In this document: positions 758-29,235 of the stretch, piece after piece | Layout: every line of letters begins with the position of its first letter | Numbering within the stretch: the first letter of the stretch is position 1 | NCBI GenBank assembly: GCA_002786065.1 | Contig: NHNY01000051.1 | Coordinates: forward strand, 1 to 29,235 | From: Microcyclospora pomicola | Taxonomy: Eukaryota; Ascomycota; Dothideomycetes; Capnodiales | Direction of reading: 5' to 3' | DNA length: 29,235 nucleotides | Translations under genes and position numbers: made by a program | Notes under the pieces: generated by a model | What the model was told of the DNA's origin: nothing | Databases searched by the model: none | Seen by the model: only the letters and a program-made list of their open reading frames with translations

Positions 758-850
758 TAGTAGGAAGAACCCCAATTATAGTTTGGGGCGAATCCCCAAC
801 CCAACCCACTTCCTACGGGTTGGGGAATCCCCTCCCCGTGGTGGCCTCTA
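758..850. repeat. Left GC-rich border, ends with 12-bp inverted match to right border
   Basis: This is a stretch of alternating GGGG and CCCC/AACCC runs. Its last 12 bases, TGGTGGCCTCTA (839-850), are the reverse complement of 26473-26484. RIP-like sequence starts directly after 850. It could be the terminal inverted repeat of a large element or a foldback repeat split by later insertions; I do not recognise the family. Confidence 0.6.
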
Positions 851-3800
851 ACCGGCCCTAAGCTAAACGAAGGCAAGTCCTAGAACTAACGCGACGATCG
901 AAACCGCGAGTCTACTAGGACGAGGGAGTCGGTAGGCCGCTCTTAGGGCTAGCGAGACGAAAACAACAAGGACTCGTCCTAGCGATAGAACGATCGTAAG
1001 TCCGATAATAAACGTAAAGGCTAGCGCGACTCTGAATAGCGACGAAATTATCACGTTAATAATGATGATAACAGAAGTTATAAGGAGACCGCACTAGATA
1101 ACGCTCTAGACTCGGACTCTGCTTCGTCGGCGTCGTTTAAAGACACTAATTTCGTCTCTATAGGAGGACAGTCGCCGACCTCGCTATAGGCATTAGTACA
1201 GCCGACGAAGTCCTCGCTACTTATAGCGACCTTGTAGCTATACTCCGGTTTACTTAAGCCGGACCTTATCTACAAGACGTGCAGCAACCGTTTCTAGTCG
1301 AATAATACCTTACATAAACACATCCGCATTAGCTACCTAAAAGGCTTGCCGACGGTTTCGAAAAACACGGCTATAACTAAGGTCCTCCTAAAGGCGTCGG
1401 GCAGCTACGCGTTAAAATCGTCGAAGAAAAACCGTAAGAAGGACCGTTAAGCTAGCGCGTCGCTAAAGGTCTCTAACCTTAAAGAAAGCAAAACACTGTA
1501 GCTAGAGATTATCTAGTCCGCGAATGTTAAACCTGCGAACACAAAAGGTCTCGCGTACCGTACTTAGTTCTATACCCGATGCAAGATTCGAGTCCGCTTA
1601 GTAAATAGGAACGAGACCGACGTCGCGGTGTGCCTTAACACAGGAACAACTATTATACTAGCGGACAAGAAGTAGTTAGTCGGAGCCTACCTAGGCCTGC
1701 CTATACTAGAGATAGAGGATTCGATCCTATTAGGCGGCGTTACTAGTAAGACCAAGTCGATACAATATACGAATGTCCCTCTAACGTTTCCTAGGACTTA
1801 TAAAGGTAGACTAGCAATCTTCTAGACCACACGTAAGGTTCACCTCGTAGACAACCTTAAGGCAAAGATGTTAATTAGGATAGATGTTATTAGGCTAGAA
1901 GACATCTTAATAAACACGCCGCTAAGGCTAGCTACAATAGCTGGTAAGGTCGACATTCCGATTGAAGTTAAACGTAAGGGCGGCCTAATCGTGTAAAAGG
2001 TCGTTATAACTACTAAGAGGACAGTAGTCCTGCCTAAATCGGTAGTTAGAGTACCTATACATTTTGTCGGATACCTTCCTAACGATAGGGACTACGCTTT
2101 CGAGTCCGATAGACAGACCGCGGGCGTTACCGTCTACAACTACCTTATAGACAGTTAATTTACTCGTACTATAGTCCGGAACGATACCGACTCGCTAGTG
2201 ATCCTTCCCTAGAACAATCGATTAGGAATGATCATAAAGTACGAATATGAAGGGGTATACGCAGTCTATAATAACGAACACAGCATCGCCGCTCTCCGCC
2301 CTTTACAGACAGTCGTAGACAAAGACTAGGAATGGCTTTACTAGAGTAGGGTGACTATTTATAGATCCGAAGACGATCGGAATGTCCTCGTAGAAGTCGT
2401 CGAGAGATATCCGGACTTATAGAGAGACCGCGGTACCGTAGTCGACATACTAAAGGAACAATAGATGAAGATACCCTTTAAGCATAACTACCTCGACTAT
2501 ATTCTAAAACCTAAGATGTATAATCTCGGGAAAAGAGACTAGAAAGTCGTAGATAATACCCTTAATCCGATACAACGACAAGGGAAGGTCGTCTACACTA
2601 CATAACCTACACCTTTCGGGTTCCTAGTATTTGTCGTCTAGAAGAAGGTTCCTAATAGGAAAGGAGGAGTCGTCGACAAAGGTCGCGCGGTAGTAGACAT
2701 CTGTAGCGCGAACAAGATTTCGATCCCGGACTCCTACTAAGTCCTGTTATAAGCCGATATGTTTGCGCTGTTAGCTAGTTACACATACATCTCTACTATA
2801 GACATAATCTCTTTCTTCTACTAGTTTCCGATTGCGCTAGAAGACTAGCACAAGATGACTATTAACACTTACCGAGGTTAGGAGTCTTTTCGTGTAGCAA
2901 TTATAGGCTACTACAATTCGGTATAGTATGTCTAGCGGTCGATAGACAATTTCCTGCGGCTATGCCGAGCTTTCGCGCGAGCATATATCGACGACTTAGT
3001 AATTTTCTTAAAGACCTTAGATAACTACTAGCGCTATCTTAATAAGGTTTTCAAAATCCTAAACAAGAGACGCTTAAGCGTGTCCTCTAAGAAGTCCTTC
3101 CTAGGATATCCGTCTACTACTTTATTAGGCTAGTATGTTAGCAGTATAGGCATAGCCACGCACGAAGAGAAACTTAAGGCGTTGACCTTACTCGAGTTCC
3201 TATACACCTTGCAGAAGCTAGAATACTATATTAGTTTAACTAATTAGCTCTGTACTTCTATACCTTATTACGCTTAGGTTTCTAAACCCTTATAGCGTAA
3301 GAAGACCCGCCTATTAAAGGCTAGACCCGTCGAAGGTAGTACTAGAAAGAAATATACGGCTCGGACTTTGCTTAGTAGCAGAGATGATCCTCCGGATATA
3401 GACGAACTTAAGAACTCGTTCGCACTCTTGTAATAACAGTTCGCGGACTCTGCGGACTCCCTCCTGTTCTATCCGGATCCGGACCGTCGTCTGTACATAG
3501 ACGTAGACTCCTCTTTCGAGTAGGGTATAGGTGTAATGATGTATATAGTTAAGGGAGATCTAGATCCTGCTATAGAGAACGGTCGGGCGCTGTTGTTTCT
3601 ACGTAAGGACATTTAGGTAGTTACCTTCCTTAGCAAAGCGCTAACGCCCGCCGAGTTAAGGTACTAGCCGACAGAACTCGAGGTCGGTAGAGTTACCTAG
3701 GTAGTGAAGAAGCTACACTACTACCTATAGGCTAGCCGACATCTAGTAACGGTGTTTACCGACTATTACGCTGTAGTTAGATTAACTAAGCACTACTTAT

Positions 3801-6057
3801 TAACGACTACGACCTCTACTAATCGATTGAACCTCAAACTCGTTAGAGCGGCTACGTACCTGTCGGCTTTCCGTCTTAACGTAGTGTATAGACCGGGACG
3901 AATCCATCTTGTGCTAGACGCTCTTAGCTGTCTAATAACGAAGAAACTAGGCGAAGACCCCGACACGGAAATGCTAGACGTCGACACCGATGATTAGCAT
4001 CGTAGAGACGCGCTAACTTTCCATGTTATGCTCGTAGAGATGGACGCCGAATTCCGGGAGAGATTGGCTCTACAGTACGAACATAACCCCTACTAGGCGC
4101 GTGTGTTGCAAATAGTCCTCTAAGCGTAGGCGAGGAACGCGGCTAACTCTACTAACGACGCCTTAGTGCTTCGCCCTAACGCGCAAAGTAGTCTCTGTAG
4201 AGACGAGTTTAACAGCCCTTTAGGACTTCTATTCTTTAAAAGGAACAGACTGCTATACGCGAGGGACACCGAGAACGGTAGAGATCGTTTGTGTATTCCG
4301 CGTTCTATAGTGCCGGACATCTTCCGACAGGCTTACGATAAGAGATACTATTAAGGGTTCTAGCGAGTATACGACAGAGTCCGGGAGTCCTTCTTTATAC
4401 ACTATCTCTCGCGTGAGCTTAAGAAGTATATTCGTTACTACCTAGAGTGCCGTAGGAACGAGACGCTTAGACATACGCCCTATAGAGAATTGAATCTAAT
4501 ACAGCCTAGGTTAGAGGTCTTCCGCGAAATAACAATAGACTTCGTAATGCCCTTACCGACGACGAAGAAGGGCAAGAATGCCTTACTTACTACTACTAAT
4601 AAGATGTCTAAGAAGGTCGCGCTTATTACGGGTAGAGACGACTAGAGCGCTAAACAATGGGCTAAACGTTAGCTCGTCAAACTTTAGAAGATGGATTGGC
4701 CTATACCTGCAGTCCTTATCTGCGACCGAGACCCGCGCTTCCTCTCCGGATTCTAGGCGAAGGTCCTAAAGCTCCTTAATGTCTATATACTTACCGCTAC
4801 TATATACTATCTACAGACGGACGGTTAGTCGGAACGAACGAATTAGACAGTGGAAATAGCTATGCGATACTTCGTAACAGGCTCGCCGGACCGCGACTAG
4901 AGTAAATATCTACCTACGCTGCAGTCTATTCTAAACAACTCTCGTAGCGCGACTACCGGCTATGCCCTTAACGAGGCCATTATAGGATTTAAGACCAACC
5001 TTGACTTATTAAATGTCCTAGACTCACTTCTAGAGCAAGACCACGCCGCGGTACGAGCTACGATCAGACGCGAGATCTAGGATGCTATCGCTATAGCTAA
5101 CGTGTTTATAAAAGAAAGGTACGATAGCAAGCACAAGCTACTGTCCCTCTACCTAGGAGATATAGTGTTCCTCCGCCTACACTACGGGTATAAGTTAGTC
5201 GGAGATATGCCGGCTAAGCTTAGCCATTAGCGAGAAGGCCCTTTTAAGGTGCTCGCTAAGGTCGGCAGCCTCGCCTACCGATTAGAGCTCCTAGCCGCGT
5301 ACAAGATCCACCTAGTAGTGTCTATCGCCTAGATCGAACTAGCGCCGAAGGGAGATGATCCTTTTAGAAGGACAGCCGGCTACGAGCTAGGTCCGATCGC
5401 CGTTGTAAACGATAATCCTATAGACTAGTACGAAATCGAACGACTAGTCGCGAAAAGAATTACTACTAGGAAAGGAGCGACGGTTACCTAATATCATGTA
5501 AAGTAGAAGGGTTAGAACAACCTCTACAACGCCTAGTATGACGAGGATGATCTTAACAACGCTAGGGACCTAATCGACGACTATAAACGCTAACACCCTA
5601 ATAATAGAGGATTCCGTCGCCTAAAGACGCGCCGTCCTAGCGCGAAGGCAGGCGCCTTACACCCTTAGGGGTTGTGAATCTTCCTCTAGGACGCGGATCA
5701 TTTTTCGGAAGCATGTTTTTCAGCAGGATAGGACTAAGCTAGCATCGGTATTCTTTAAAGTATGCCCGTAACCTTTCGTGTAGCTATTTAATCTTAAGGA
5801 GTCGTGTTGCTTTCTAGTATGTAACAAGCCGTTGTTTGTTTACGATTGTCGCGACACCTCCGCAGCAGTAGCGACACTATTTGTTTTTTCGTGTCCGTAC
5901 TACATAACATATCTACTAAACTTCACAAACCTTTATATCTATACAATCACACCCTACTATAAGCATACTAACCTAGTTCGTCCTCTAAGCATATTCCCTC
6001 CTCGGTTAAACACGTCCTTATTACGTTGACCGCAGTGTACGACACCCTAAGAGCACA
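851..6057 (+). mobile_element. Element 1: Ty3/Gypsy LTR retrotransposon fossil, 5'-truncated
   Basis: This is a broken copy with many breaks, consistent with RIP. The order of parts on the + strand is: aspartic protease-like region about 1560-1950, reverse transcriptase about 2580-3260, RNase H about 3430-3990, zinc-binding and core integrase about 4080-5100, an integrase tail or chromodomain-like region about 5130-5580, then a candidate 3' LTR. A gag region and 5' LTR were not found; the left side stops at the GC-rich border. The pol order RT-RH-IN is diagnostic for Ty3/Gypsy. It differs enough from elements 2 and 3 to be another family. Age cannot be clocked because RIP inflates divergence. 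Confidence 0.8.
5673..6057 (+). repeat. Candidate 3' LTR of element 1
   Basis: The segment begins TGTG and ends CACA, is about 385 bp long, and follows the end of the pol region after a short purine-rich run (about 5666-5671). No second copy is present in the window, so the boundaries rest only on the terminal dinucleotides and position. Confidence 0.45.
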
Positions 6058-18410: not shown

Positions 18411-21400
18411 GTATCCTTAGCGTTATCGCCTTTCACCTAGTTAGCGATAGAAGGGATACTAGATAAATTCTTTACTACAGGTCCCCTAGACTTCCTTCTT
18501 ACTAAGTCTAGCCTAGTAGATAGGGTCTTATAAAGTCCTACAACGCCCTATCGTAGTTAGTAAGGTTCTTCTATAGTTCCTAAGTGTTTTCCGCACTTAG
18601 GTAACCCTTCTATTTTATGAGGTACTACGTGCTTCCTTTGCTAACTCTTTTTTGCAGTATCTTTTCTACCTTATATTCTACTTTAACGAAATTATCGTTA
18701 ATATCCGGAGGCGTTGTCTGTAACGGGGTCTCTTCGTAGGCCGGTTTAAGGAGTGATATATAGAAGTTTAGGTGGATCTTTATTGTCTTTAGTAGATCTA
18801 GCTCGAAATTGACGAGTCCTCTTTTCTTCTTAATCTTAAATGGTCCTAATTTCGTAAAGTCCAACTTGTTGCTAGGCCTCTTAGTTCGGATATTTTGTTA
18901 GAGGAGATAAACTTTGTCCCCCTCCTTAAGAGTTAGTCCTTTAACTCTCTTCTTATTTGCGAAATACTCTATTCTAGAGCGAAGGAATTGTAGGTCCTTT
19001 TAAAGGTTCGCGTAAAGAACTTTCTAATTGCCTACGTACTGTAGGGCTTTAGCAGCTAGGTTAGCGTCTTTAAGAGGTAGTAGGTCTATCGAAGAGGGTT
19101 AAAGCACTTACAACAGGGACAACCTAGCAGCTCCGACAGATAAGTTGTAGCTATATTGCGCTGTAGGTAATAGCGATACCTAATTATCCTGCTAATAGTT
19201 AACATAGTAGCGTAGATATTGTTCTATAACCTAGTTTATCCGCTCGGTCTGTCTATCTGTCTAAGGATGGAATGATGTAGACAACTTATACTTAACACTA
19301 AGTTGTCTTATTAACAACTTCTAAAAGTTGGAAGTAAACAGCTTATCTCGATCTAAGACCAATTGCTGTAGAACTCCGTGATTTGCAATTACTGTACGGT
19401 AGAAGACATAAGCGAGGTCTTCTACGCTAGAGCTTTCTCTAAACAGAAGGTAGTAGGCGAACTTAGAGAACCTGTCGACGATAACGAGTATCGAGTCATA
19501 CTCGATCCTAGATACTAGCTCCTTAGACTTAGGTAGTTTGACCACAAAGTCTAGGGATACTGACTGCTATAGTCTATTAGGGACTAGCAATGATTAGAGC
19601 AATCTATAGGGTTTGTGTCGGGAATGCTTCGTGCGTTAACAAGTGGCATAAGCGTCGACATAGTTCGATACTACTTTCTGGATTCCCGGGATTATATAAT
19701 TCTACGTGATCCAGGCAATGGTTTTCTCGACTCCTTTATAACTAGCACTGAAAGAGTCGTAGTGTTGTTCTAAGATGTCCTTCTAACAAGTCTTAGGTAT
19801 ATACACTATCTCCTAGAACAAGAGCAGTCCGTTGTCTTGTTTCTACTTTAGTTAGTTTTGAGCTAGATTATTAACAATGCCTTTTGCGAAAGCGTCATTG
19901 TCTAACTCAACTCGGATCTTAGCGAGGATGTTATGTTGCACAATCGACGTCGCTACAACCGTGACACGCTTAAGGGATCTATCTAAGTCTATCTAGAAGA
20001 TCGGTCCTTTAAGCTTAATTTCTCCTTTAACGAAGTTACTTCGTCGGCTTAACGCGTCGGCTCGCGCATTCTTAGACCCCTTCCGATACCTGATACGGAA
20101 GTTATAGTACGCGAGTTCTTAAGACTAGCAAACATGTCGACGACTTAGTTCCTTTATAGTCATAAAATACTGTAGGTTTTCACATAATCCGTGTACACGA
20201 GGGTCTCGTATATCGATCCTTCGAGGTAATGCTTCTAATGCTTAAAAGCTTCAATTATCGCTAAGAGTTCTTTGTCATGAATCTCGTAATTCAGTTCTGC
20301 TAACGATAGTTTCCTCGAGTAATATACGACTAGGTGAAGTTTGCCGTTATCGCTAGTCTAGCTGATGCATCCTCCTAGCGCTTTATCGCATAAGTCGGTT
20401 TCGACAATGCTTATCTTGTTTAGGTTAAACATAACGAGAATTAGTTCTTCGCTAACTATTCTTTTAAGTTTCTCGAACAGTTCCTTATGTTCCTTCGTCT
20501 ATTTAAAAGGAACATCTTTCTTAGTAAGGTCTGTAAGAGGTGCCGTAATCCTCGAATATCCTTTAATAAAGATTCGGTAGAAGTTCACAAATCCTAAGAA
20601 GGATAAGACTTCTTTCGGCGATCTAGGTCAGGGCTAGGTCATAACTGCCTCGATCTTTACAGGATCTATTTAGAGACCTTTATCGGATATAATGAAGCCT
20701 AGGAATGCGACTTCCTTCTAGTAGAATTCACTCTTCTTAGGGTAGACGCGCAGTCCAGCCTTTTGAAGTGCCTTAAGTACTGTCCTTACATAGTGGACGT
20801 ATTCCTCCTTAGTCTTGCTATATACTAGTATGTCGTCTAAATATACGACAACAAAGACGTCTAGACATTCGCGAAGAATGTTATCAATATAGTTTTGCCA
20901 CGTCGCTAGTACGTTGGTAAGACTAAATAGCATTACCAAATACTTATAGAGTCCGGAAGGTGTTAGGAAAGCCGTTTTCTATTCGTCTCCTTCGGCGATG
21001 CGTATCCTGTTAAACGTAGCCGGGATGTCGAACTTACTAAACACTGTAGCTCCTTAGAGCTTGTTCCTTAAGTTACTAGCTAATAGCAATAGGTAGCTGT
21101 TCTTAATAGTAACATTGTTTAGTCCTTAGTAATCCACGCACATACGGAATCCGTCCCCTTTTTAGACGAATAGTACAGCGGATGCTACAGGGGATTTTGA
21201 AGGTCTAATAAGCCCTTTCTTCGTTACATCTTCGAGGTTGTCCTTAAGTACCTATAACTTAATCAGAGAAAGTAGTCTTAGTTTGTCCTTAGGTAGCTTG
21301 CTACTAGGAATCAATTCAATCTTGTGATCCTAAGGTCCTCTTATAGGTAACGAGTTCGTCTTGTCCGAGGGTTCGAATAACTCGGCGAAGTCTTTGTATT

Positions 21401-24329: not shown

Positions 24330-26472
24330 TTCTTTAAACAGTAATAGCCTGTCGCTGACCTTCTAGTATAGCTAATAGTTGGCTAGATTTATTATTATCT
24401 GTTTCGAGAATGAGTTAGAATCTAGGTGCGTTTAGATTTCTTAGAAAATGTTATACTAGACTACTAAAGTAGCAGCAATCCTAACACGTTCTAATAAACT
24501 ATCCGGGCAGCGTTGTAGAATAGGTCCTTTGACCTTAACTTCTCCTTTAACGAAGTCGCTTCTCCTACTTAGTACATCTGCCCGGGCGTTTTCCGATCCC
24601 TTCCGGTACTTGATTTGGAAGTTGTAATAGGCAAGTTCCTGCGCCTAGCGGACTTGTCTTCGATTTAGTTCCTTCGTCGTTATAAAGTACTAAAGGTTTT
24701 TATAATCTGTATACACGAGCGTTTCGTGTTTAGACCCTTTAAGGTAATGCTTCTAATGTTTAAAAGCCTTAACAATAGCTAGAAGTTCCTTATCGTGGAT
24801 CTTATAGTTGAGTTCTGCTAAATTGAGTTTCCTCGAGTAATAGGCCACTAGGTAGAGTTTGCTATCTTTGCCCGTCTAGCTAATATATCCTCCTAGTGCC
24901 TTGTTGTATAAGTCGGTCTCTACTATACTTATCTTACTTAGGTTAAACATAGTAAGGATCGGTTCCTCGCTCACTATTCGTTTAAGCTTCTCGAACAGTT
25001 CCTTATAATCCGTAGTCTAACTAAATAGTACGTCTTTCTTCGTAAGGTCTATAAGAGGTGCCGTGATCTTCGAATATCCTTTAATAAAGATCTAGTAGAA
25101 GTTTACAAATCCTAGAAAGGATAGGACTTCTTTTAGTAATCCTAGTCGAGGCTAAGTCTTAACTGCCTTGATCTTTGCTAGATCTATTCGGAGACCTTTG
25201 TCTAATATAATAAATCCTAGGAAAGTAGTTTCCGTCTAGTAGAATTTACTCTTCTTAGGGTAGACGCGGAGTCTAGCCTTTTGAAGGGCCGAGAGTACTA
25301 TCCTTACATAGTAGACGTGTTCCTCCTTAGTCTTGCTAGTTTGTAAGTCTAAATAGTATAACCAAATACTCGTAGAGTCCAGATAGTGTAAGGAAAGCTG
25401 TCTTCTATTCGTCTCCTTCCGCGATACGTATTCTATTGAACGTAGCCGGAATGTCGAACTTACTAAACACTGTAGCTCCCTAGAGCTTATTTCTTAAGTC
25501 GTTAGCTAATAGCAATAGGTAACTGTTCTTAATAGTAATATTGTTCAGTCCTTAGTAATTAACGTATATGCGGAATCCGTCTCCTTTCTAGACGAATAGC
25601 ACGGCGGATCCCGCGGGAGACTTCGAAGGTCGCACTATCCCTTTCTTCGTAGCGTCTTCGAGGTTATCTTTTAACGCTTAAAGCTTAATTAGGGAGAGTA
25701 GTCGAAGTTTGTCCTTAGATAGCTTACTACTAGGAATTAACTCAATTTTGTGATCCTAAGGTCCTCTTACAGGTAGCGAATTTGTTTCGTCTAAGGGTTC
25801 GAATAATTCTGCGAAGTCCTAGTATTCCTTCGGGATCTCTAGTTTGACTTCTCCTAATTCGGCAATCGTAGCCTACATCGCGTACACTCGTTACGGCTTC
25901 TTACGAATCTATCTATCTATCTGCTTCTACGATATAAAGCTAATATTGCCTACCTTCTAACCCGGCTTCGTGCTAGCGTTAGACAGTGTAGTGCTAGGTC
26001 GCTTAAACTTAAACGTTCCTATAGCCTAATTAATAGACGGGTTGTTTCTTTTTAACTATAGTAGTCCTAACACTACGTTATATTCTTACGGCGTAATTGT
26101 TATATAGAACTAGTATTTCTCTCGGTAGCGTCCTATCTCGAAAGACACTTCCTGTGTTTCTGTGTTAACTATACCCTAGTTAATACTAATAAGGGTTCTA
26201 TCGTAATTCTGTAATTAGAACGGTCGTTTCATCCTCTAGGTTCTTATCTTTAAACGCTCCGCGAACTAGTAGCTTATAAACAGTCCGGTCGCTCTAGAGT
26301 CTACTATAGCCTTAGCTATAAGTCCGGCAATTTAGACCTCCTTAATAAGGTAGCTACCTGTATTAGCGGCAATCCTATCTACCTCTTTAAGGTAGTGTCT
26401 ACCTATAAGCGTAAGCCGCGGTCTTAGGCTAGTTCTTTAGGTTTTCCTTTCTTCGCTTCCTTCCTACTAGAT
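24325..26472 (-). mobile_element. Element 2, 5' part: RNase H, reverse transcriptase and protease regions
   Basis: Continuation of the element cut at 17497. Read on the - strand it holds an aspartic protease-like region (about 26450-25950), reverse transcriptase (about 25720-25150) and RNase H (about 25130-24540), closely matching the same parts of element 3. It is broken. Gag and the 5' LTR are absent: the copy stops at the right GC-rich border, in mirror image to element 1 at the left border. Confidence 0.87.
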
Positions 26473-26650
26473 TAGAGGCCACCATGGGGCGGGTTGGGGC
26501 GGAGGTGGAGGAAAATTTGGGGCTTACCCAATTGTTTGGGTTCTTCTATTTAACCTCTATATTGTGCGGGGACCCATGTTATTCGGGTCCCCGGTCCTGA
26601 ATTTGGGTTTAATTGGGGAAGTTACCCTAATAGAAATTGGGGAATGACCG
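26473..26650. repeat. Right GC-rich border with inverted match to left border
   Basis: The first 12 bases, TAGAGGCCACCA (26473-26484), are the reverse complement of 839-850. A GGGG/CCCC-rich stretch follows, similar in composition to 758-850, and contains a 9-bp perfect inverted repeat, CGGGGACCC (26567-26575) with GGGTCCCCG (26585-26593). Nothing recognisable lies between 26650 and 26743. Confidence 0.6.
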
Positions 26651-26743
26651 TTAGAGCGTTAGAAGCTACGCTAGCTCTAAAAGGAAGGTTAGACGCTAAT
26701 CTTACATACTAGTATGAAACGTTTATACTAACGCTATTTCGAA

Positions 26744-26777
26744 TGCCAATCACAGTGCCAATCACAGTGCCAATCAC
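26744..26777 (-). repeat. Triple TGCCAATCAC array, 12-bp period
   Basis: Three copies start at 26744, 26756 and 26768, in reverse orientation to those at 547-638. It lies about 180 bp beyond the stop codon of histone gene A, with CAGTG between copies; CAGTG is also a common hAT terminus. Confidence 0.9.
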
Positions 26778-26836
26778 AGTGCTGCTTATATCACGTGTAG
26801 GAGATAGTTTATAAGACACAAGGCATTACGATATAG

Positions 26837-26916
26837 TGGGTATCATCGGTTTTTAGTAGCTATCTACGCTACTATATGGGTATCATTGTTGTTTAGTAGC
26901 CAACCTTGCTACTAGG
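26837..26916. repeat. Two tandem 40-bp units, each with a 7-bp stem hairpin
   Basis: Two imperfect 40-bp units start TGGGTATCAT at 26837 and 26877. Each contains TAGTAGC, a 7-nt loop and GCTACTA (26854-26874 and 26894-26914). The loops differ while the stems are identical. They lie 39 bp past the stop codon of gene A, so they are probably transcribed in its 3' UTR. Confidence 0.8.
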
Positions 26917-26952
26917 AGCCTAACTAAGCAAACAGCCTAGCCTAGTCTAGCC

Positions 26953-27631
26953 TCAATTGCCGTCCATCCTTACAGGGCTCTCCATAAGAAGCTTAAGTAG
27001 CTGCATGTCTTTCTGCTGGATAGTGACACGCTTCGAGTGAATAGCAAGCAGGTTCGTCACTAGAAACAGGGGATTAGCTAAGTAAAAGAACTAGAAGCTA
27101 AACAGACGACTTACTCTCGAAGACTCGAACCAAGAACGCCTCTGCAGCCTCCTGAAGACACTCAAGCGCGCTAGCCTGGAACCTGAGATCGAACTTGTAA
27201 CCCAGGCCAATCTCACGGACGAGACGAGCAAAAGGCGTTCTCGGGATGAGAAGTGAGACACTCTTCTGAAAGTGGCGAATCTCTTTGATTTGAGAGACTA
27301 AACACAAGTTAGTAAGTGCCAATCACTATGCCAATCACTATTACTCACGCTCTGGCCTGATAGCTTTCTTCTGTCCATGCTTGTTCTTCCTGTACTTTCC
27401 AGGGATCTTGTTGAAAGGCACCCAGTCACGACCTTGTGTGAGCCTCTTACGGACTGTCTTAGACTTTTTTGGAGCGAGAGTCTTTCTTGGACCCTTTCCG
27501 CCTGTAGATTTGAAGCCTGTCTGTCTCCTGACTGCAGTACGCTTGATGGGTGATGCGTCGACCCGGATGCGCGTCGAAGGGGTCTCGCCGTCTTGCTGGG
27601 TGGTCGCGGGTGGTGGATTGGCGTCGGCCAT
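26953..27631 (-). CDS. Histone H3-like variant, gene A (three exons, 190 aa)
   Basis: I infer exons 27631-27349, 27297-27115 and 27059-26953. The 51-bp intron 1 has donor GTGAGT, branch-like TACTAAC and acceptor TTTAG; the 55-bp intron 2 has donor GTAAGT and acceptor TTCTAG. Removing them gives one continuous 190-codon frame with H3 order. Residues 41-50 ([10 protein letters not shown]) match H3 residues 9-18, retaining K9, S10, K14, R17 and K18 equivalents, but 32 extra residues precede them and about 18 extra residues lie before R92-P93 (H3 R42-P43). The histone fold follows: alpha-N to about 107, P-F-A-R-L-V-R-E-I at 116-124, D-L-R-F-Q at 131-135, Q-E-A-A-E-A-F-L at 143-150, K-R-V-T-I at 165-169, K-D-M-Q-L at 172-176. 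Loop 1 has canonical length; the C-terminal A-R-R-I-R-G-E-R is replaced. I chose the ATG at 27631 (context CACAATGG) over one at 27865 because the upstream stretch consists partly of the GTGATTGGCA repeat. Expected role: nucleosomal H3 variant in the nucleus. The specialised function is unknown. Confidence 0.88.
27317..27338 (-). repeat. TGCCAATCAC pair inside intron 1 of gene A
   Basis: Two copies start at 27317 and 27329 (12-bp spacing) and fill most of the 51-bp intron (27298-27348), leaving only the splice signals outside. In the sense of the gene they read GTGATTGGCA. Confidence 0.9.
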
Positions 27632-27659
27632 TGTGTGGGAGTGTGAGGTACCCAGGATT

Positions 27660-27680
27660 GTGATTGGCAAGTGATTGGCA
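27660..27680 (+). repeat. GTGATTGGCA pair, 11-bp spacing
   Basis: Copies start at 27660 and 27671. It is the first pair upstream of the gene A start codon and is inverted relative to the pair in intron 1, so exon 1 lies between oppositely facing pairs. Confidence 0.88.
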
Positions 27681-27757
27681 GGTATGTAGATGGCGGACGA
27701 GTTTTGATGGGTTTCGCAGTGTCTGGCGATGCGAGGAACGACAGCGGGGCAGCAGGT

Positions 27758-27777
27758 GTGATTGGCAGTGATTGGCA
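27758..27777 (+). repeat. GTGATTGGCA pair, 10-bp spacing
   Basis: Exact head-to-tail copies at 27758 and 27768. Confidence 0.88.
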
Positions 27778-27856
27778 GCAATGTAGGGCAGCTTGTCAAA
27801 AGGATGTGCAGGGGTTTGTCAAAGTGAAGGTGATGACTGGTGGAACGTTGAGGCGG

Positions 27857-27864
27857 TGACGTCA
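27857..27864. promoter_or_regulatory. TGACGTCA palindrome (ATF/CREB-type site)
   Basis: A perfect 8-bp palindrome 226 bp upstream of the gene A start codon. This is the consensus site for bZIP proteins of the ATF/CREB class; whether it is used is not known. Confidence 0.5.
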
Positions 27865-27979
27865 TAAAAATTGGGTGGCTGGGGCGGGGTAATCACGTGG
27901 CGACCTCTGATTGGTCAGGTAAGCGAACCGTCACATGCCTGAAGTGAAGCCTGGGATGTTTTTTCCAAAACCGCTGAGA

Positions 27980-28001
27980 GTGATTGGCTTTGTGATTGGC
28001 A
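27980..28001 (+). repeat. GTGATTGGC(T/A) pair, 12-bp spacing
   Basis: Copies start at 27980 (last base T) and 27992. A looser relative, TGATTGGTCA, lies at 27908-27917. Confidence 0.8.
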
Positions 28002-28269
28002 GTGTATGACGCTGAATCCCGCGACATCTGGCAGTGTGAGCGCATAGCGCGCGAAATAAGGCTGTTGTAGACACTTGTCGCTTTTGGGTAACTTGAAAAT
28101 AAACCGAAAAATCTGAAAAGCTCTAGGGAGAGGATAGTTAGCTTAAGAGCACTATATCGACAACAAGAGCTCGAAAGGACGTACTAATAATCGTTTTACA
28201 ACTTTCTAGAAGGAGAAATTTAGTTCTTTTGCTTATAGCGGGTATAAAAATTTCGTATACATACTAGGT

Positions 28270-28289
28270 GTGATTGGCAGTGATTGGCA
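28270..28289 (+). repeat. GTGATTGGCA pair, 10-bp spacing
   Basis: Exact head-to-tail copies at 28270 and 28280 in the spacer between the two histone genes. No gene is seen in the rest of the spacer (28010-28494). Confidence 0.88.
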
Positions 28290-28388
28290 GTAAAGAGTGA
28301 TTTTTAGCTCATAAGGGGCTACACAAAGTCGTTAGGTTACGCGAAAATGAATTTCTGTAGATAGCAAGGAACAGTACATGTGGAAGGT

Positions 28389-28408
28389 GTGATTGGCAGT
28401 GATTGGCA
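28389..28408 (+). repeat. GTGATTGGCA pair, 10-bp spacing
   Basis: Exact head-to-tail copies at 28389 and 28399, just past the 3' end of histone gene B. Confidence 0.88.
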
Positions 28409-28494
28409 CTAGTAATAGAGACGATCTCAAAGTAAAGCTAGAAAAGAATGTTAGCAATTAGGTAATATATACATGTGAATAAAAGGAGCTTACA

Positions 28495-29023
28495 CTAGTC
28501 TAGCTCGTAGTATGGGTCGCCATTCATCCTATGTCGGAGCATCCGGATCAGGCGCATGTCCTTAACTGCCATCGTGACGCGTTTTGCGTGGAGGGTCGCG
28601 AGTAAGGACATCTCGAACTCTGTTATAAGAAATGCCTCCGCAGCTTCCTGTAAGGCTCCTAACGCAGAGCCTTGAATGCGAAGCTGACCCTCTGATGATA
28701 TATCTGACATTATCTCACGTACAAGACGCGAAAAGGGAAGGCGCGGTATACATAGAACGGTCGTTTTCTGGATCTGTCGAATAGCGCGTAATGCAGCAGT
28801 GCCAGGCTTAAGTCTTCGCTTTTTTCGTGACTGAGACTGCTGTCCCATACGAGGTCGTTTTAAAGGGAACTTGACACTGCGTTTTGCTACAAGTTTCGTG
28901 CGCCCTTTACGTATGATAGCTAATTTTTTTCGTTAGTTAGAAGATCGGTGTGTTAAAAGAAGGCATAAATTACATACCATTGCTAGAAGACAATGCAGTA
29001 GATGCAGGTGTAAGAGGCGGCAT
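28495..29023 (-). CDS. Histone H3-like variant with CENP-A-type loop 1, gene B (two exons, 156 aa)
   Basis: I infer exons 29023-28978 and 28919-28495. The 58-bp intron has donor GTATGT, branch-like CTAACTAAC and acceptor TTAG; its phase joins G to CT in frame. The 156-residue product begins MPPLTP. Its first 50 or so residues are basic and Ser-rich and keep no H3 tail block. The fold starts at K53-P-G-T-A-A-L-R (H3 R42-P-G-T-V-A-L-R), then P-F-S-R-L-V-R-E-I (77-85), Q-E-A-A-E-A-F-L (106-113), H-A-K-R-V-T (126-131) and K-D-M-R-L (135-139). Between REI and LR there are nine residues (86-94) against seven in canonical H3, the two-residue loop 1 lengthening typical of CenH3/CENP-A. The C-terminal end is unusual (to D156). 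A shorter one-exon version starting at residue 40 is possible but less likely, since the splice signals are good. It could be a CenH3 paralogue or a lineage-specific H3 variant. Confidence 0.88.
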
Positions 29024-29030
29024 TGTAGAG

Positions 29031-29120
29031 GGATTAATAGCTGATAAGGAATGGTAGAGGAGGTCAGAAATCAGAGAGAGAGGGAAGGAGAGGGAAGAGG
29101 AGAAGCAATCTAAGAATAAA
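29031..29120 (-). promoter_or_regulatory. Pyrimidine-rich upstream region of gene B
   Basis: On the coding strand, about 29065-29105 is an almost pure CT tract (GA-rich as written), a common feature upstream of fungal transcription starts, ending some 45 bp before the gene B start codon. I see nothing recognisable in 29121-29235, which is AT-rich at its end. Confidence 0.45.
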
Positions 29121-29235
29121 AGCTTACATATGTTGAGAATCACGCTAGATCTACGCTAGTGATATCCCTATTATCACGCTTTAAAACTGGTTCTTAAATC
29201 GCTTACTTTTGATTTTGTTTATTTATTAATATTGC

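Follow-up and report, generated by a model that had tools for sequence, protein, structure and literature searches.

The window analysed here covers, from end to end, contig C47 of Microcyclospora pomicola (GenBank assembly GCA_002786065.1, contig NHNY01000051.1; 29,235 bp), one of 58 contigs in an assembly of 23.37 Mb. Close to its right-hand end lie two adjacent histone H3-like genes on the minus strand, here designated H3a and H3b. The pair is almost certainly cargo of a hAT DNA transposon that has been active recently and carries, besides transposase exons and an orphan gene, these two different H3-like genes in its right end. The original prediction, made from the window alone, had suggested a host locus with specialised H3 variants, probably formed by local duplication, beside a nest of repeats decayed by repeat-induced point mutation (RIP). 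The structure of the two genes is as follows (window coordinates):

28978..29023, minus strand: H3a exon 1 (splice model)
28920..28977, minus strand: H3a intron, 58 nt, GT..AG, phase 1
28495..28919, minus strand: H3a exon 2, including the stop codon and the histone fold (splice model, Pfam)
27349..27631, minus strand: H3b exon 1, extended N-terminus followed by an H3-like tail in which Phe replaces R8
27298..27348, minus strand: H3b intron 1, 51 nt, containing two TGATTGGCA motifs
27115..27297, minus strand: H3b exon 2 (splice model)
27060..27114, minus strand: H3b intron 2, 55 nt
26953..27059, minus strand: H3b exon 3, including the stop codon (splice model)

The splice models have intact reading frames, and the predicted proteins are 156 aa (H3a) and 190 aa (H3b) long. 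All three introns (28977-28920, 27348-27298, and 27114-27060) were GT..AG introns in phase 1, 51-58 nt long, and a check of the sequence placed their junctions at the positions predicted earlier. Both proteins matched the Pfam family Histone (PF00125; E 6.8e-26 for H3a and 2.2e-30 for H3b), and the best matches among PDB histone H3 chains had E-values of 4.9e-27 and 8.7e-30, respectively. The resemblance to H3 is therefore not a matter of chance, and the reading of the locus as two adjacent minus-strand genes that splice to full H3 folds was borne out. Core residues, e.g., HxKRVT and KD, were retained in the H3 proteins. The two genes contained 13 and 14 codons that are one transition away from a stop, their frames being nonetheless open. 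The motifs IPRxPF and FEM occurred in both proteins as predicted but were not exclusive to the pair: IP[RK]xPF was found in 43 of the 238 retrieved homologues (8 of these with IPRxPF) and FEM[STQ] in 4. The combination of an IPRxPF-type motif with FEM was found in none of the 238.

Both proteins were divergent and non-canonical, as had been claimed: their core identity to canonical H3 was 55.8% (H3a) and 55.3% (H3b), and their tails were altered or lacking. A recent tandem duplication as their origin was not supported and is unlikely, because the two cores are only 46.9% identical to each other, below the value of either against canonical H3, and the tree gave no support for a sister pair. No close orthologue of either protein was present among the best 120 of 6370 matches retrieved for H3a and the best 120 of 1155 for H3b.

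According to our phylogenetic reconstruction based on 33 rows (P0125 was removed beforehand because of an internal duplication), H3a clustered with P0027 and P0029 (support 98/94), with P0030 (97/84), and less surely with P0103 (86/75). The first three are divergent H3s without names from sequence archives, and P0103 is a hypothetical protein of Pseudogymnoascus; all four, compared at the protein level, shared 50-57% identity with H3a across the alignment. The C-terminal RMxGDP was common to P0027 and H3a. Placement of H3a within CenH3 was rejected by the approximately unbiased (AU) test (p-AU 0.0096). By the tree and this test, H3a is neither an ordinary H3 nor a CenH3, and here too the expectation of a position outside both clades was upheld. 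H3b had a very long branch, and the best tree put it beside the H3a group at a support of 47/7; neither grouping of H3b with H3 (p-AU 0.257) nor a sister relationship of H3a and H3b (p-AU 0.078) was rejected by the AU test, and H3b has no supported position in the tree. An old common origin of the two proteins is compatible with these values, being neither shown nor excluded by them. A search of viral contigs for a viral origin of the H3a group gave 61 pattern matches and no confirmed relatives.

The transposon is represented in the window by parts of two copies:

26473..29235, minus strand: right end of a hAT copy with both H3 genes, 2763 bp, truncated by the contig end; block present on 11 contigs
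26473..26484, plus strand: right terminal inverted repeat TAGAGGCCACCA, a 12-base inverted match to the left end
26465..26472: target-site duplication of the right-hand copy, 8 bp, ATCTAGTA read outward; counterpart at the left end on C6
1..850, plus strand: left end of a second copy of the same transposon, 99.8% identical to C14
3..485: transposase end of this copy with the hAT dimerisation domain (PF05699, E 5.5e-12)
839..850, minus strand: left terminal inverted repeat TAGAGGCCACCA, matching the other end
851..858: target-site duplication of the left-hand copy, 8 bp, GGGCCGGT read outward; counterpart on C3
859..26464: RIP-decayed repeats separating the two transposon copies (RIP index, retroelement remnants)

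The sole complete assembled copy is 8259 bp long (C14:426729-434987). It has TAGAGGCCACCA in inverted orientation at each end, between which lie, in this order, the transposase exons with a BED finger and a hAT dimerisation domain, the orphan gene, and the two H3 genes; the element thus joins H3-like genes and a hAT transposase within one pair of terminal inverted repeats. The transposase domains were detected in separate exon open reading frames (ORFs; PF05699, E 9.2e-13; PF02892, E 1.4e-5). For the orphan gene (359 aa), none of 7999 scored candidates was a homologue at E <= 10, and no Pfam family passed the cut-off. The motif TGATTGGCA/TGCCAATCA occurred 37 times in the 8259-bp element versus 0.08 expected, mostly as paired motifs (L023 1897-9664). 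Fourteen of these lay in the H3 block, none in H3 exons and two in intron 1 of H3b (window 27317-27337); none was found in window 851-26472.

The same H3 pair was found on 11 contigs by a histone search, and a DNA search with a 2283-bp query gave 11 full-length matches at 100% and a further, short one of 90 bp where C37 ends. The common block comprised 2763 bases (window 26473-29235) and stopped abruptly at ...GGCCTCTA, with unrelated DNA past this edge. Differences were confined to three bases within the last 14 on C12 and a single mismatch in 2763 on C14. Ten contigs ended at the identical base of the block; on C14 the block lay inside the contig, whose end was 57 bp away. A comparison of the 8-mers bordering 8 left and 10 right ends revealed six identical pairs (C14-C2, C47-C3, C6-C47, C22-C42, C36-C46, and C10-C30), as expected for 8-bp target-site duplications. 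Two further pairs were non-identical: C37-C12 differed at one RIP-type base, and in C9-C4 the 8-mer was shifted by one base. No partner for C7 and C56 was present among the flanks compared. Paired and unpaired flanks together therefore indicate at least ten insertions. C47 itself runs from one copy to another: its first 850 bases are the left end of one, and the right end of the other makes up its last 2763. The duplications also order contigs over transposon copies, e.g., C3 - C47 - C6, and could serve for scaffolding.

The break at the same base on ten contig ends looks like the reuse of one repeat consensus by the assembler. Given this and the unmutated block of a RIP-mutated copy (described below), the identity from copy to copy is partly a property of the assembly. 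This does not apply to the count of insertion sites, which is based on distinct flanks. C14, with its one mismatch, has a block version of its own. A subtelomeric block, suggested by the constant offset of the pair from contig ends, was rejected, the common edge and the target duplications showing that the assembly breaks inside the transposon; none of the block contigs was among the first 100 of 157 telomere-repeat places (contigs C1 to C34). A Helitron end was likewise dropped after the inverted repeats and 8-bp duplications had been found.

The predicted RIP-decayed repeat nest was confirmed. The composite RIP index was 1.55 for window 851-26472 vs. -0.05 for the complete C14 copy and -1.20 to 0.31 for 20 background samples of 700 bp, chosen by hand at round positions on large contigs, none of which exceeded 0.5. 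Over their first 700 bp, the ten right flanks of the element had indices of 0.47 to 2.32, nine of them above 0.5 and each higher than every background sample. When 5 kb of each flank was taken, the index of four (C2, C7, C12, and C56) was below 0.5. DNA between the two copies (window 851-1200, 4364-4642, and 18628-18897) contained a repeat present at 91-93% identity on six other contigs, as well as retroelement remnants (SH3_Tf2-1, E 1.5e-9; Integrase_H2C2, E 0.0037, below the cut-off).

One copy of the element, split between C37 and C12, was itself mutated. Compared to C14, stretches of 923 bp and 1169 bp in its C37 part had 40 and 63 substitutions, respectively; 33 and 59 of these were C>T or G>A changes, of which 31 and 56 stood in CpA/TpG context. 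The transposase exon on C37 contained seven stops, and the remaining copies have no such region in the assembly. The H3 block of the mutated copy was unmutated across 2749 of 2763 bases, which may reflect either assembly collapse or real sparing. In this copy (C37:93378-106168 and C12:1-2763; L064, L070, L011), additional DNA of about 7.2 kb also separated the left end from the H3 block.

A hAT element with H3 cargo is already in print, and the layout is the same as in the published elements. As described in the consulted text of the 2013 paper, the 5.6-kb hAT of Pyrenophora tritici-repentis contains a transposase, in its centre an ORF whose function is unknown, and a single H3-like gene represented by expressed sequence tags; this H3L fits neither H3 nor CenH3, has insertions in its tail, and is present in many near-identical element copies (PMC3538342). 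By description, the last feature and the position outside H3 and CenH3 liken it to our element, which differs in size (8.26 kb) and in carrying two unlike H3 genes. A 2.3-kb short form is also reported for P. tritici-repentis. The hATs of Pseudocercospora fijiensis, Cercospora, and Sphaerulina are about 9.5 kb at full length with two H3-like copies each (PMC6710886, 2019). They likewise have 8-bp target duplications, terminal inverted repeats, and RIP-marked blocks, as far as the description in that source goes. All of them were, however, reported there as RIP-inactivated, with an inferred intronless captured transcript and no dimerisation domain found, whereas the M. pomicola element has this domain and two intact, intron-bearing H3 genes. 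These two papers were the only ones on hAT-H3 elements yielded by our literature search, which scarcely covered preprints and subscription journals and so does not establish absence from print. The novelty here is that both H3 genes are intact and intron-bearing and that all ten flanks are more RIP-marked than the 20 background samples. Judging from the published accounts, the kind of element with two H3s was previously known only from copies destroyed by RIP; here the encoded proteins can be read directly. The case also cautions that surveys of fungal genomes may be counting transposon genes as H3 variants.

The tails of the two proteins suggest a possible function. In H3b, alignment to H3 starts at Gln5 with the motif QTxxKSTGGKxPRK, in which K9, S10, T11, G12, G13, K14, K18, and K23 are retained, Ala7 is replaced by Gly, and Arg8 by Phe. 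H3a has no recognisable H3 tail. In Neurospora, according to the sections of PMC3248561 consulted, R8A fully inhibited DIM-5 in vitro, whereas A7M did not affect it significantly, and adding an R8A gene to wild-type H3 led to hygromycin resistance (release of the reporter) in three of five transformations. Because of the Phe at position 8 of H3b and the missing tail of H3a, we propose that the cargo H3 helps the transposon evade host silencing of repeats, as it may by analogy with Neurospora. The element would encode its own H3 proteins, predicted to pair with host H4 in nucleosomes and to be unable to bear the H3K9-methyl silencing mark, H3b by mimicking the tail around K9 with Phe in place of Arg8 and H3a by having no tail. 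In trans, both would dilute or block the silencing of repeats by DIM-5/HP1. This would extend to those copies of the element that lie in RIP-marked DNA, and transposase expression would be maintained.

We put the probability of the hAT identity and this mechanism taken jointly at roughly 0.35. The intact frames and introns, the core residues kept, the K9-K14 tail with Phe8, and the RIP-marked right flanks (10 of 10 over 700 bp) were counted in its favour. That the element encodes anti-silencing histones is by itself a tentative proposal and somewhat unlikely; it draws on observed gene structures, fold homology, tail residues, and insertion sites and borrows the effect of R8 from Neurospora, and from these we infer expression, incorporation, and the effect on silencing. 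Several points weigh against it. In the consulted text of PMC3248561, the trans effect of R8A was variable (hypomethylation in one of three resistant transformations in Table 1 and in about half of the resistant colonies in the text) and weaker than that of changes at K9, S10, T11, and K14, and R8 substitutions were viable. The long N-terminal extension of H3b may prevent its tail from reaching chromatin enzymes. The element is not immune, the C37/C12 copy having been mutated by RIP. The transposase exon ORFs of C14 are individually open but did not yield a complete frame, the join to the last exon being uncertain. Finally, the flanks of C14 are unequal (left CTTCTAGC, right GGGCCGGT): the right one is common to C3, while the duplication partner of C14 is C2. 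The right-hand join of C14 is doubtful for this reason and probably an assembly error.

Passenger capture (transduplication) is a serious alternative, only somewhat short of even odds. Under it, host H3 sequence was taken up by accident into a hAT and multiplied, and the functionless copies are left to drift. Young, near-identical copies would remain intact without selection, drift could explain the divergent H3 domains, and the consulted parts of the 2013 and 2019 papers, which lean to accidental capture, interpret the published elements in this way (PMC3538342, PMC6710886). It accounts less readily for one element with two unlike H3s whose frames, introns, and fold residues are intact, for the wider divergent group to which H3a belongs, and for the recurrence of H3-like genes in hAT elements of other fungi, as published. 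A maintained module fits two intact, unlike, intron-bearing H3s better than a recent accident does, which is not proof. Use of the histones in transposition itself, by packaging the element or steering insertion into RIP-marked DNA, would also explain why the first 700 bp of all right flanks stand out from the background, but a preference for TA-rich targets or selection against insertions in genes explains the flanks equally, and four of them lose the signal over 5 kb; this role is improbable. The reading of the original prediction, host chromatin variants with a special role at repeats, at centromeres, or in a particular life stage, agrees with the full H3 folds and altered tails. It is nevertheless very improbable: the pair lies between hAT inverted repeats with 8-bp duplications at at least ten sites, the genome has a CenH3 of its own (C34:521151-521635), and H3a does not belong to CenH3.

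The anti-silencing proposal has a more specific form, in which a fungal hAT lineage maintains a two-histone module, with tail-less H3a and a decoy H3b, which copies the surroundings of H3K9 but is disabled at Arg8, acting in trans against DIM-5/HP1; we regard it as rather unlikely. If it were true, further members of a transposon-encoded anti-silencing chromatin system, some living and some dead, would be found in the published "captured host H3" elements. Substitution of the residue altered in H3b prevents DIM-5 from methylating H3K9, which makes the question of why hATs carry H3 experimentally approachable.

The presence of separate host H3 genes, which the original prediction had proposed to check, was thus established for CenH3; canonical H3 was not found in a search of the assembly. 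Canonical H4 was not found there either, the only H4 match being divergent (C55:472028-472496, minus strand; L073; 74% and 68% in two exons). A gap in the assembly is the simplest reading for the absence of both. A match to the tail pattern at C34:312453, considered as canonical H3, turned out to be a DUF7025 protein: in C34:311300-314000 (minus strand; L074), the frame starts with MARTKQTARK near C34:312480 and continues as DUF7025 (E 1.8e-26). It may be a non-histone protein whose start resembles the H3 tail, or else an accident of the gene model or assembly. Loci that we take to be H2A-like and H2A.Z-like were also noticed in the assembly.
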